The position numbers and the translations under genes are program-made. The notes under the pieces are model-generated. The model was not told where the DNA came from, searched no databases, and saw only the letters and a list, made by a program, of their open reading frames with translations. Below are positions 13,113 through 52,455 of a stretch of 64,000 bases of DNA, piece after piece (position 1 is the stretch's first letter; every line of letters starts with the position of its first letter). Source of the stretch: Natronosalvus rutilus (GTDB lineage: Archaea; Halobacteriota; Halobacteria; Halobacteriales; Natrialbaceae); contig NZ_CP100355.1 of assembly GCF_024204665.1 (NCBI RefSeq), forward strand, positions 2,213,451 to 2,277,450, written 5' to 3'.

Positions 13113-13155
13113 TGCTCCGTCAGGGATTCGAACCCTGGTCATTGCCGTGAGAGGG
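13113..13155. repeat. attL: 43-bp duplicate of the tRNA-Glu 3' half
   Basis: This segment is identical, base for base, to 52381-52423, which covers the discriminator base, acceptor 3' strand, T arm and 3' side through the anticodon loop of the tRNA-Glu(CTC) gene. The match ends sharply on both sides (g versus a at the left, g versus c at the right). Such a duplication is the classic footprint of site-specific integration into a tRNA gene. Everything from here to the intact tRNA gene is therefore the inserted element. Confidence 0.92.
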
Positions 13156-13193
13156 GACCAACAGATAGCCAGTCAAGGCGCATAGCCACTAGC

Positions 13194-13592
13194 TTGCGCG
13201 ATGTCATCGAAGTATGGGAAGACCACGACCTGAATGCAATAAATGAGATCTATACATCCGATTATCGAGGGCAGGATTTCCCCTTACAGATACCGGTCAC
13301 TCGAACCCGATATCGGAAGTTAGCTTCCCTGTTCATCACCACATTTCCGGATTGCTCGATCGAAGTCGAGACACTAACTGCTGATGAGGATTTCATCAAT
13401 TTTGAGTGGATATTCACTGGAACACACACCGGCACAGTATACGGAACTCCGCCAAGTTACGCTGCGGTCTCGTTCACTGGAAAAGGACGCCACCGACACG
13501 AAAATGGAAAAGTAGCAGAAGTCTGGATGGATGTCGACTGGAAGCACCTCTATACACAACTAGCAAGAGGATACTGGACACGATTCCAATGA
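13194..13592 (+). CDS. SnoaL-like / NTF2-fold protein at the attL junction
   Basis: About 132 residues: LRDVIEVWEDHDLNAINEIYTSDYRG at the start, then FITTFPDCSIEVETL, then FEWIFTGTHTGTVYGTPPSY and GKVAEVWMDVDW. This is the pattern of SnoaL-like ester cyclase family proteins, which are NTF2-fold enzymes of variable function. The frame is open back through the att repeat with no ATG close to the fold start; TTG at 13194 is proposed. The N-terminus therefore begins 38 bp inside the element and may have been rebuilt on integration. Confidence 0.65.
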   Translation: MRDVIEVWEDHDLNAINEIYTSDYRGQDFPLQIPVTRTRYRKLASLFITTFPDCSIEVETLTADEDFINFEWIFTGTHTGTVYGTPPSYAAVSFTGKGRHRHENGKVAEVWMDVDWKHLYTQLARGYWTRFQ

Positions 13593-13603
13593 AAGAGATA
13601 GGG

Positions 13604-14545
13604 TTAATCAAACCGATTTATTTCTCTCATTTCGACGTTGCCGTCAGCCTCTCGGGTGAGACTGGATAGGGACTCAGGAGTTTCGATAAAGACTGCTTCA
13701 CCACCTTTCGAGGCGAGGTTTGCGCGAAGCACGTTTTGACAGTACACACTCCCCTTGCGTTGGGGTATCGAGTGTCGAGTGTGTCCGACAACCTGCGGCG
13801 GTGCGTCTGGTGGGAGATGTTCAAAGTCGAGCCAGACGAGGCCCGCCCCGGGATTCTTTGGGTGACCGGTGCCAACGCCGAGGACGCGCTGATGTTCATC
13901 GATGATTCGCCTCTGCGTGCCCACGTCGTACTCGGTTCCGGCAGCCTCGAGCAGTTTCTTAGCGGCTTCGATGAGCGACTCGTTGACCTTCTCTACTCGA
14001 TATTCGGTTGGCGACCCAGCGTGGACGTAGGTGACGTTGTATCCCTCATAGGCCGCGACTATGTGGCCAGCTACAATCTGTTCGAGGAATTGTCGTCGAT
14101 CGTCTCCGCCTACTCTGCCAGCAAACCACTGCGTGTATCCGAAGTGATCAGGTGAGAGTATGATCGCTTCGTGGTTTCCAAGAGTGATCCGAACCCGCCC
14201 GGGCGGAGCCTCGTCAACAAGTCTGGCTACCAACGCGAGGACGCCCTCGTTTGCTGGCCCCCTATCGATAAGATCTCCATTGAATACGAGCACGTAATTT
14301 TCATCTGCCCAGTGGAGTGCCCCGTCATCTCCGGGAACGACCACTGGAGCGAACTCAGGATGATCCGCTAACGTCAGGAGTGCGCTTCGCGTTGGTTCGA
14401 GATAGCCGTGGAGATCACTGATACTGACGATTGTTGGTGGCGAGTCGCCGATGGATAGCCCATTGACGGAATCGCGGACGGAGGATGAGGGCAATGGCCC
14501 GTCCAAAATAGGGAGTGGCATCGTGTATGTATATTCTGTAGGCAT
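13604..14545 (-). CDS. Calcineurin-like metallophosphoesterase
   Basis: About 313 residues with the whole metallophosphatase motif series: ISDLHGYLEP, NGDLIDRGPANEG, LGNHEA, VTYVHAG and VGHTRHSIPQ. These supply the D, H, N and H ligands of a binuclear metal centre. The layout resembles PPP-family serine/threonine or Ap4A-type phosphatases; the substrate is not known. The ATG at 14543-14545 (MPTEYTYTMPLP) is chosen; an in-frame extension upstream is Cys-rich and unlike the family. Soluble, convergent with the SnoaL-like gene. Confidence 0.88.
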   Translation of the reverse strand: MPTEYTYTMPLPILDGPLPSSSVRDSVNGLSIGDSPPTIVSISDLHGYLEPTRSALLTLADHPEFAPVVVPGDDGALHWADENYVLVFNGDLIDRGPANEGVLALVARLVDEAPPGRVRITLGNHEAIILSPDHFGYTQWFAGRVGGDDRRQFLEQIVAGHIVAAYEGYNVTYVHAGSPTEYRVEKVNESLIEAAKKLLEAAGTEYDVGTQRRIIDEHQRVLGVGTGHPKNPGAGLVWLDFEHLPPDAPPQVVGHTRHSIPQRKGSVYCQNVLRANLASKGGEAVFIETPESLSSLTREADGNVEMREINRFD

Positions 14546-50190: not shown

Positions 50191-50982
50191 ATGAGCAATA
50201 TTGGTGCTGATGGCGAACGTGTATCTCTACAACAGCAGTTGACGGTGGACTACATGCGGATGGCGGGACACCGGAGTAACGTTCACGGACTCATCGAGAT
50301 CGACGTCACCGATGTCAGAGAGCACATCCGGACAATCGAGGAAGAGACCGGAACGAAACTCTCGTTCACTGCCTTCATCGTATCCTGTCTGGCCACCAGT
50401 GTTGGGGAACAACCTCACATCCAACGGTACCGTGATTGGCGGGGACGATTCCACGAATTCGAGGACGTCGATGTGAACGTCCTCATCGAACGGGAAACCG
50501 ACGGCGAACGAATCGGTATCCCTCACGTCATTCGACGAGCAAATCAACGGACAGTTCGGTCGATTCACGACGAAATTCGTCGCGTCAAAGCAGACACGAC
50601 GTATCGCCCAGAGCCCGGACTCGCCAGACTTGCACGCCGCCTTCCCAGCTTCCTACGCCGCCAAATTTGGCGGCTCCCTCAGTGGTTCCCGACACGGTGG
50701 AAGCGCCTCGCCGGCAGCGTCGCGGTCACCTCTGTCGGTATGTTCGGCACCGGAAACGGCTGGGCCATCAGTCCCACGAATTACACCCTCCAACTCACTG
50801 TTGGCGGCATCGGCACCAAACCACGCTTGGTCGACGGCGAACTCCGTTCCCGGGAGTTCCTGAGTCTGACCGTTACCTTCGACCACGACGTCGTTGACGG
50901 AGCACCTGCCACACGGTTTGTCCAACGCCTCAACGAACGCCTGAAAGCCAGTCACGGCCTCGACATCGCATCTACCGAGTAA
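50191..50982 (+). CDS. Stand-alone E2-type acyltransferase domain
   Basis: 263 residues. Contains only the catalytic domain of 2-oxoacid dehydrogenase E2 proteins: LSFTAFIVSCLATSVGEQPHIQRYRD and FDHDVVDGAPATRFVQ with the active His/Asp. There is no lipoyl domain, no peripheral-binding domain and no E1/E3 gene nearby. A basic stretch (RLARRLPSFLRRQIWRLP) is inserted. A chloramphenicol-acetyltransferase-like acyl transfer is plausible; substrate unknown. Confidence 0.85.
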   Translation: MSNIGADGERVSLQQQLTVDYMRMAGHRSNVHGLIEIDVTDVREHIRTIEEETGTKLSFTAFIVSCLATSVGEQPHIQRYRDWRGRFHEFEDVDVNVLIERETDGERIGIPHVIRRANQRTVRSIHDEIRRVKADTTYRPEPGLARLARRLPSFLRRQIWRLPQWFPTRWKRLAGSVAVTSVGMFGTGNGWAISPTNYTLQLTVGGIGTKPRLVDGELRSREFLSLTVTFDHDVVDGAPATRFVQRLNERLKASHGLDIASTE

Positions 50983-51109
50983 CCAAGCACCTATCCAGGA
51001 CCACAACAATTCTGCCGCTCGCTACACACTCTCTTTGCTGAATACAACCTCTATTTCAGCAGTCAGATCCTATCAAACTCGAAGGATTTATACAAACTGA
51101 CCTTCTGGA

Positions 51110-52213
51110 TCAACCGATGCGATCGAGTGCATCCTGTCGATCCTCAACTGGTGCCTGATCGTACTTCATCGTCGTCTCAGGGCTCTTGTGTCGTAGCTGT
51201 GTCTGTGCTGCTGCCAGGTCTTCTTCGCGCGTCATATACGTCCCCGTGGAGTGGCGGATGGTGTACCAGCTCATCTTCCGGTTTTCGTAGTCAATGCCAG
51301 CGATCTCACACAGTTGGTGGAGGATGCGTCGAAGCGACGCGGATCCGTACGGGTTTCCTTCCCGTGTCAACCACAGTTCATCGCGCCCATCGTAGAGGTC
51401 GTACGTTGCTCGTTGTTTGAGCCAACGCTCGAGCATACTGACGGAGCGCTTGCTGAGGCTGACGCGCCAGTTGTCTTCGTTCTTGGAGCTATCCTCGATC
51501 GGAATGCGCAAAATCCCGTTTTCCAGATCGACCCATCCGGTCACGGACCGCTCAACTTCGATCGGTCGGAGCGCAGCGTCGAGACTGACGCTGACGAGGC
51601 TGGGGATCTTCCAGTTGTTCGCACGCTCCCAGTCGCGTTTCGTGATCTCCGCAACGGGTTTCTCGAACCGCTGGGCGAGATAGGCGTTAATCTCGCTGCG
51701 CTCCCGTGGACTGACGTTGTTGTAGGACGGGATGCTCCCGTACTCCAGCGCCGCTTCGCGGATGAGTTTCCGTTCCTGGAGTGTGAGGTAGTCGCGTGGC
51801 GTCGTCGTCCCGTCGTTCGAGCTAAACGTGATTGTCGGCTCCCATTCCTCGCCACCGCGCTCGTAGGCACGCCACTTGAACAGCATCCGCACGGCCTTCT
51901 GGCACAGGTCGCGGTGGGTGTCGCTACACACGGCGTAGGCCAGTTCCTGCATCCATGCATCCGCGTGCTCGTGCGTAACTGCCGTCGTGTACTGGCCCTC
52001 GCGGTCCCAGACGAATCGGCAGAACTGGTCCATCCGGTAGATCCGGTTTTTGACCGTACTCTCTGCGTAGCCGTTCGCTTTCTCCGGCTCGATGCCGAAC
52101 GTGAGCAGCCACTTAACCATCTCCTCTCGCTCGGTTCGGTAATCGATCAGTTGCCGTTCGCCGAGTCGGTCTTCGGTCGGGCCCGGAACGAGCGTGAACT
52201 CGCTTAGATCCAT
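51110..52213 (-). CDS. Tyrosine recombinase / integrase of the island
   Basis: 367 residues with an N-terminal SAM-like core-binding domain (about 28-120) and a catalytic domain. Active residues visible: R216 (DAALRPIEVE), R320 (SWYTIRHSTGTYM), H342 (LRHKSPETT) and Y351. The first HxxR position is Y317, not His, as in several haloarchaeal integrases. It is encoded 167 bp from the intact tRNA-Glu gene, inside the island, and is the natural candidate for the integration reaction. ATG 52211-52213. Confidence 0.92.
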   Translation of the reverse strand: MDLSEFTLVPGPTEDRLGERQLIDYRTEREEMVKWLLTFGIEPEKANGYAESTVKNRIYRMDQFCRFVWDREGQYTTAVTHEHADAWMQELAYAVCSDTHRDLCQKAVRMLFKWRAYERGGEEWEPTITFSSNDGTTTPRDYLTLQERKLIREAALEYGSIPSYNNVSPRERSEINAYLAQRFEKPVAEITKRDWERANNWKIPSLVSVSLDAALRPIEVERSVTGWVDLENGILRIPIEDSSKNEDNWRVSLSKRSVSMLERWLKQRATYDLYDGRDELWLTREGNPYGSASLRRILHQLCEIAGIDYENRKMSWYTIRHSTGTYMTREEDLAAAQTQLRHKSPETTMKYDQAPVEDRQDALDRIG

Positions 52214-52380
52214 CGCTCTCCCTCCCGAACGAATCCTGCGAATCGGATTGCAGGGCAAATAGTCGTAATCGCTATGCGGCGTCGGGGTGACCCGACCATC
52301 TCAATCGCATTGCCTTCGAGTTTCATGCTTACGTGAGGTTAGCACGGACTCGAAATCGGGAGACGGCGTCGGGAAAAGGA

Positions 52381-52455
52381 TGCTCCGTCAGGGATTCGAA
52401 CCCTGGTCATTGCCGTGAGAGGGCAATATGATTGGCCGGACTACACCAACGGAGC
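52381..52455 (-). tRNA. tRNA-Glu (CTC), integration target
   Basis: A full cloverleaf on the minus strand: acceptor GCTCCGT pairing with ACGGAGC plus discriminator A, anticodon loop CTCTCAC with stem TTGCC/GGCAA giving anticodon CTC (Glu, GAG), and the T loop TTCGAATC. CCA is not encoded. Positions 52381-52423 are repeated exactly at 13113-13155. Confidence 0.95.

Follow-up and report, generated by a model that had tools for sequence, protein, structure and literature searches.

A 39.3-kb island between tRNA-Glu(CTC) repeats in Natronosalvus rutilus and the HSTV2-family integrase at its end

In the haloarchaeon Natronosalvus rutilus, a stretch of 64,000 nucleotides (nt) of contig NZ_CP100355.1 (positions 2,213,451 to 2,277,450 of the forward strand; hereafter the window, numbered from its first letter) contains two identical 43-nt sequences, one of them inside the gene for transfer RNA (tRNA)-Glu(CTC), which enclose a tyrosine integrase and about 39 kilobases (kb) of metabolic and other genes. 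The locus raises the question of whether the enclosed DNA is a mobile element and, if so, which of its genes travelled together and by what route. It is best explained as an integrative genomic island whose HSTV2-family integrase recognises the 3' half of tRNA-Glu(CTC) and whose repeat pair stems from integration, a reading that is given a probability of roughly 0.93. As such it is of a known kind, the tyrosine-integrase island in a tRNA gene. Its wider interest is that in other genera, too, relatives of the integrase have built islands at this tRNA gene, with almost wholly different genes.

Boundaries of the island

The features that define the ends are as follows.

13113..13155, plus strand: left attachment repeat, the displaced 3' 43 nt of tRNA-Glu(CTC); exact, and the genome's only second copy at up to 3 mismatches
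51110..52213, minus strand: HSTV2-family tyrosine integrase of 367 residues (PF00589), with R216, K244, Y317, R320, H342 and Y351 present
52214..52380, no strand: element arm from the integrase start to the attachment site; a similar arm adjoins tRNA-Glu in genomes G006 (from 52228), G001 and G066
52381..52423, plus strand: right attachment repeat (exact) within the intact tRNA gene
52381..52455, minus strand: tRNA-Glu(CTC), called by ARAGORN

A repeat search over 12000-53500 returned 13113-13155 and 52381-52423 as a direct repeat with 100% identity and a spacing of 39,268, the next-longest direct pair being 37 nt at 73%. Allowing up to 3 mismatches, the 43-mer occurs at 2 sites in the 4,312,161-base genome, both within the window, and the control matches number 0. 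The tRNA-Glu(CTC) gene is the sole tRNA that ARAGORN calls in the 64-kb window, and its position makes the right repeat copy the 3' 43 nt of that gene; the left copy is missing the 5' part. A first-pass annotation of this stretch had described exact repeats of 43 base pairs (bp) set 39,268 bp apart, had identified them as the 3' half of tRNA-Glu(CTC), and had taken them to fix the ends of an island. The coordinates are identical here, no further copy was found in the genome at up to 3 mismatches, the right copy lies within an intact tRNA, and the ends are supported as those of an integrase-made island at tRNA-Glu. An intact tRNA at one end, an identical displaced fragment at the other and an integrase between them is the arrangement by which Islander defines a tRNA-gene island, and as far as the available part of its description goes (PMC4383910), the restored tRNA and the displaced fragment that mark the two ends show no difference in kind. 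In 2-kb windows, the guanine-cytosine (GC) fraction is 0.58-0.68 outside the island and 0.47-0.61 inside it, but 0.62-0.68 at about 32-39 kb.

From this arrangement a mechanism can be proposed. The integrase would recognise the 3' half of tRNA-Glu(CTC); integration would have restored the tRNA on the right side, with the displaced 43-nt copy remaining on the left, and the two copies, on recombining, would release the island as a circle. The present copy presumably derives from a single insertion event and may still be subject to excision. Movement between cells may rely on an unseen helper or on DNA exchange by the host, through cell fusion and homologous recombination, since no transfer or replication gene is recognised in the island.

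The integrase

The tyrosine integrase that the first-pass annotation placed just inside the tRNA end matches PF00589 at 55.1 bits against a cut-off of 27.1, and it starts ~170 bp from the 3' end of tRNA-Glu(CTC); a match to PF13495 (17.2 bits) stays below its cut-off of 27. The six residues listed above are invariant across 8 aligned integrases, and we take them to be the catalytic positions of tyrosine recombinases. The island protein shares 45.9% identity, over 99% of the query, with the integrase of HSTV-2; phage records with a match number 49, of which 35 are named Halorubrum. These values lie above the thresholds of 30% identity and 60% of the protein that define the HSTV2 family of archaeal tyrosine recombinases, and Phage_integrase is the sole domain detected, as the definition also asks. 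In the accessible part of its description, the family is confined to Halobacteria and the elements they carry (Badel et al. 2021, PMC8371274). The likeness to that family lies in the identity to the HSTV-2 integrase and the one PF00589 domain above cut-off; the setting differs, as HSTV-2 is a virus with a tRNA-Leu fragment, whereas here a cellular island with metabolic cargo occupies tRNA-Glu(CTC).

Islands at tRNA-Glu in other genomes

A 39-letter core of the repeat, searched with at most 2 mismatches in 125 family genomes, is present in 76, a count from which tRNAs differing at 3 or more of the 39 letters (e.g., that of G066) are excluded. With adjacency defined as within 700 bp and judged by eye from coordinates, an integrase lies beside the core in 11 of the 76 genomes, including G090, whose integrase is broken; G099 and G134, which keep only integrase remnants, were counted as without. 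A second copy of the core is found in 8 of these 11 genomes vs 0 of the 65 others (Fisher p = 8.8e-9). The two copies share a contig in six genomes, where they are 38.5, 39.3, 54.4, 76.3, 162 and 288 kb apart, and lie on separate contigs in G015 and G044.

Four complete islands in four genera were compared by open reading frame (ORF), namely the present one and those of G071, G011 (Natronorubrum texcoconense) and G089 (Natrinema hispanicum). Besides the repeat, the tRNA-side integrase is the sole gene common to all four; the other three also carry a second recombinase, and a few further ORFs are common to pairs. For the N. hispanicum island, the congener G091 provides the empty site: its left flank runs straight into tRNA-Glu and the right flank; the initial 522 bp of the left-flank query, which recur as repeats in these genomes, have no match there. 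Together, the islands suggest how metabolic cargo can be exchanged at a single tRNA gene by elements in which no transfer machinery of their own is recognised.

Both the HSTV2 integrase family and hallmark-free integrase islands in haloarchaea are already known. According to the available portion of the report on Halorubrum ezzemoulense (PMC11078007), integrase islands of this species have no viral or plasmid hallmarks, and some pairs have only the integrase in common. The present islands resemble them in their integrase, lowered GC, tRNA neighbourhood, lack of hallmarks and alternative content per site. They differ in that the H. ezzemoulense islands, as described there, belong to one species and have hypothetical content, whereas here exact attachment repeats and one integrase clade span four genera, and most of the larger cargo genes match known families.

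Integrase clades and their tRNA targets

The best 80 of 106 integrase relatives in named genomes were taken as family loci. The integrase-tRNA geometry is constant at 64 of these 80: a tRNA on the same strand ends, on its 3' side, 99-398 bp upstream of the integrase gene (33 Glu(CTC), 7 Leu(TAG), 6 Glu(TTC), 6 Gly(CCC) and 12 others). In an integrase tree of 81 sequences, with 7 of the 80 loci left out as short, a 42-row branch (Shimodaira-Hasegawa-like approximate likelihood ratio test, 99) holds 37 Glu rows, 1 Gly, 1 Pro and 3 unlabelled rows, while five more Glu(TTC) rows fall outside it. Over the whole tree the tRNA amino-acid identity changes 12 times, vs 28-33 times in 500 shuffles of 75 labels. 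Among these labels are five tRNA-Ser on the opposite strand, two Glu fragments, and Leu and Thr from viruses (the tRNA-Thr of HRTV-5 is taken from annotation, as ARAGORN gives no call). As judged from these sequences, tRNA identity tracks the integrase tree, clade and target tRNA going together, and a single repeat pair becomes a testable system.

The integrases of HSTV-2 and HCTV-6 sit within a 9-row branch whose remaining seven rows are Leu(TAG). In both viruses a tRNA 3' fragment is found ~50 bp upstream of the integrase (L117:3600-3930 and L118:3600-3930), and 56 of the 57 letters compared match the tRNA-Leu(GAG) of locus L190, against 43-50 for Leu(TAG) genes. Tree position and fragment concur, and thus point to tRNA-Leu for these two viruses, with the fragment as the predicted attP of the HSTV-2 viruses.

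Many tRNA-Glu elements also encode a second tyrosine recombinase, convergent with the integrase. It is seen within 5 kb at 18 of the 30 Glu-labelled loci with at least 5 kb of room (19 of 38 when all Glu loci are counted) and at 0 of 29 loci labelled with another tRNA, although the probes all came from tRNA-Glu elements, which biases detection toward those. Its presence changes 11 times on the tree (43 Glu rows). It is absent in this genome and in G001, and present in G066, which belongs to another genus and has an integrase 89% identical to that of the island. There are 23 such recombinases, of which that at L140 is not scoreable; the first catalytic arginine is lost in 14 of the remaining 22 and kept in 8. 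The arginine-less set comprises L124, L126-L128, L131-L133, L139, L148-L150, L153 and L200 (downstream of the integrase gene), and also G024, and nearly all of it belongs to tRNA-Glu elements, L131 being unlabelled at a contig end. Loss of the first catalytic arginine need not mean inactivity, IntDOT being a case in point. In the open-access literature searched, as far as its text was accessible, no description of the tRNA-Glu integrase clade or of the convergent partner was found. It could be speculated, with the odds somewhat against it, that haloarchaea harbour an element family dedicated to tRNA-Glu, in which integrase and attachment site are constant, cargo is exchangeable and transfer genes are lacking, that the arginine-less partner is possibly non-catalytic, and that the island in the window is a derivative that lost the partner and now spreads with its flank by homologous recombination.

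Cargo genes and the history of the interior

Island proteins were named by Pfam, NCBIfam, PHROGs and PADLOC scans. Gene calls came from a codon-usage caller made for this analysis rather than a published tool, and their starts are approximate. The cargo families are metallophosphoesterase, SOUL protein, amidase, Acg-type oxidoreductase, TrkA-N channel, Na+/H+ antiporter, TauE exporter, flavin adenine dinucleotide oxidoreductases, arylamine acetyltransferase, regulators, a major facilitator superfamily transporter, SBP56 with a 2Fe-2S ferredoxin, PAS histidine kinase, TnpB and CAAX protease.

12978..13592, plus strand: SnoaL-like ORF running through the left repeat, with its domain from ~13197 (profile scan)
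13604..14647, minus strand: metallophosphoesterase, truncated at the junction in G006 (profile scan and junction alignment)
14315..23730, no strand: part of the island held by G006 at 98% identity and there joined to the left flank (alignment; one 516-bp insert)
20083..23640, plus strand: TrkA-N potassium channel-like protein and Na+/H+ antiporter (profile scan)
24052..25032, minus strand: TauE/SafE exporter (profile scan)
33456..38386, minus strand: GC-rich block of SBP56, ferredoxin and regulator genes (GC of 0.65-0.68 at 33-38 kb, and profile scans)
35437..36849, minus strand: SBP56/methanethiol oxidase gene with an in-frame TAG at 36196-36198; both halves match PF05694
43433..44772, minus strand: IS605-type TnpB, split across two reading frames (profile scan and frame inspection)

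As the SnoaL-like ORF spans the left repeat, excision would alter its 5' end. The earlier statement that the island carries no recognisable replication or virion gene holds for the proteins scanned, among which replication, relaxase, secretion and virion families are all missing; short and doubtful ORFs lay outside the scan. With no relaxase or type IV secretion family among these proteins, the island does not classify as an integrative conjugative or mobilisable element. A PADLOC scan for defence genes, covering 10 island proteins, yielded a single weak hit, Cas12f-like (E 0.0057), in the 27920-28684 protein.

The sister species G006 is colinear with this genome and retains part of the island. 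There, window positions 1-10574 are fused directly to 14315 through a 15-bp imperfect repeat, at a junction that truncates a DUF3179 gene and the metallophosphoesterase; since both genes are whole in this genome, the left end of G006 is read as a deletion that removed the left attachment site. After 23730, G006 has ~5 kb of other DNA and then the element arm from 52228 adjoining tRNA-Glu, and it is without the left repeat, an integrase match or 23731-52228. Identity to G006 lies at 96.4-99.2% throughout thirteen 2-kb bins spanning -4 kb to 23.7 kb, crossing the left island boundary. Elsewhere it is mostly 86-95.5%, except in a second high block (-34 to -28 kb) and in isolated bins at -98 and -44 kb. 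On the simplest reading, which the alignment suggests, homologous recombination exchanged the island along with its flank, and this would also be the route of spread best supported by sequence. Mating through cell fusion is known in haloarchaea (PMC5496957, in the part available) and may have served this island as well. The comparison suggests that the island and its flank crossed species together, and that losing the integrase and one of the attachment sites can afterwards freeze an island in place.

According to the first-pass annotation, the boundaries tell which genes moved together, including a methanethiol oxidase operon. This does not carry over to the interior, given that G006 shares just 14315-23730 and that the nearest SBP56 homologue occurs in another genus; because G006 is without 23731-52228, and the SBP56 block differs in GC and homology, the interior is not taken as one unit. 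A history with slightly better than even odds is that the attachment sites are genuine, but the integrase and left part came first and further blocks (SBP56 operon, 23.7-52.2 kb) arrived or were replaced later, in which case the content did not travel as a single unit. Consistent with this, G006 holds 14315-23730 and has the ~5 kb of other DNA instead of 23731-52228, the GC inside the island spans 0.47-0.68, and the island contains a split TnpB. SBP56 is without a match in the rest of the genus (7 genomes, of which one is 66% complete), and the nearest homologue of its N-terminal half (81%) is in G042, of another genus. However, deletion of the right part in G006 would give an identical pattern, and that genome's left end itself reads as a deletion, with the integrase lost while the tRNA-side arm was kept. 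For 23731-52228, loss by G006 and gain by this genome are both allowed.

Related gene groups occur elsewhere. On a Haladaptatus megaplasmid, SBP56, 2Fe-2S, hypothetical and MarR-type genes are grouped, and 43% of the query is covered. An SBP56 and ferredoxin pair also lies just outside the left attachment site of the G071 island (G071:C3:1120279-1120938, L097), with ~62-67% identity to the window's pair for SBP56 and 49% for the ferredoxin stretch. The 516-bp insert of G006 (L035 ~7904-8420; G006:C1:585904-586420) matches window 43368-43404, beside TnpB, with its first bases and may be a non-autonomous IS605-type element. At window -5439 to -4387 (G000:C1:2208011-2209063), close to the left edge of the 98% block shared with G006, an integrase-like ORF was identified by eye.

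Alternative explanations

Some observations weigh against an island made by a tRNA-directed integrase. At 16 of the 80 family loci there is no same-strand upstream tRNA; five of these have an opposite-strand tRNA-Ser, three a Glu-like 3' fragment (L126, L165 and L200, recognised by reading the sequence, with no tRNA call from ARAGORN), and eight neither, three of the eight being at contig ends. The island has no recognisable excision factor and no counterpart of the convergent second recombinase seen in many tRNA-Glu relatives. The first-pass annotation predicted an empty site with the cupredoxin gene adjoining tRNA-Glu. A search with the left flank, confined to the genus, gave no such site in its seven other genomes, and the sole genome sharing that flank, G006, is without the boundary.

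Alternatively, a helper virus or plasmid of the same attachment specificity might package or mobilise the element as its satellite. The integrase family is shared with tailed viruses, and such islands occur in several genera, with four complete ones free of hafunavirus proteins. This is nevertheless improbable, as no packaging-like gene is recognised in the island, no IMG/VR contig has the exact tRNA-Glu attachment sequence (an exact search that misses diverged sequences), and a pattern search of IMG/VR, which likewise misses diverged sequences, gave 1 related integrase.

Somewhat less probable again is that the island is the remnant of a hafunavirus provirus from which every virion gene has gone while the integrase remains. 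The 45.9% identity to the HSTV-2 integrase and the 49 matching phage records would fit, and the available part of one survey (PMC8651126) describes proviruses of Hafunaviridae and other tailed viruses, most haloarchaeal ones in tRNA genes. However, the terminase, portal, capsid and tail genes expected of a Hafunaviridae provirus are missing, and PHROGs assigns the 20 island proteins scanned to integrase, transposase, phosphatase, regulator and unknown families, with no virion family. None of 34 HSTV-2/HRTV-5 proteins has a hit in any of the complete islands (four compared). Among the 80 family loci, 2 show one; for these loci the test is weak because they extend ~10 kb or less per side and viral genes near the integrase vary. 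The HSTV-2 integrase, moreover, falls within the Leu clade and not the Glu clade.

That the 43-bp copy is a stray tRNA fragment, placed by chance or duplication and unrelated to the integrase, can be set aside almost entirely: tRNA fragments can arise by other copying routes, but the second copy is tied to an adjacent integrase (8 of 11 genomes with one, 0 of 65 without), which contradicts the unlinked fragment that the first-pass annotation had named as a refuting case.

In-frame TAG codons

The methanethiol oxidase operon of the first-pass annotation is probably not intact, as the SBP56 frame is cut by the TAG at 36196-36198 and the gene looks broken, unless the base is an assembly error; six aligned relatives have an acidic residue at this position. 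The cupredoxin gene reported in the left flank is there as a cupredoxin-like gene (11427-12848, minus strand, outside the island), interrupted by in-frame TAGs at 12657-12659 and 12213-12215. Frameshifts were ruled out for it, as it forms a single frame with the two TAGs. TAG as a sense codon was considered for these three TAGs in two genes and rejected as unsupported, and the genes are taken as interrupted. A PylS search of the genome gave a 27.7-bit match, below the 178-bit cut-off, and matches of this kind occur in 13 of 14 control genomes, in 1 above the cut-off. Among stops lying in frame between coding-like stretches in the 244 kb around the window, 20 of 38 are TAG, a stronger lean to TAG than in G006 (13 of 31) or G007 (8 of 25), in a noisy scan that also catches same-frame neighbouring genes and false frames; of the region's called genes, 39 of 145 end in TAG.

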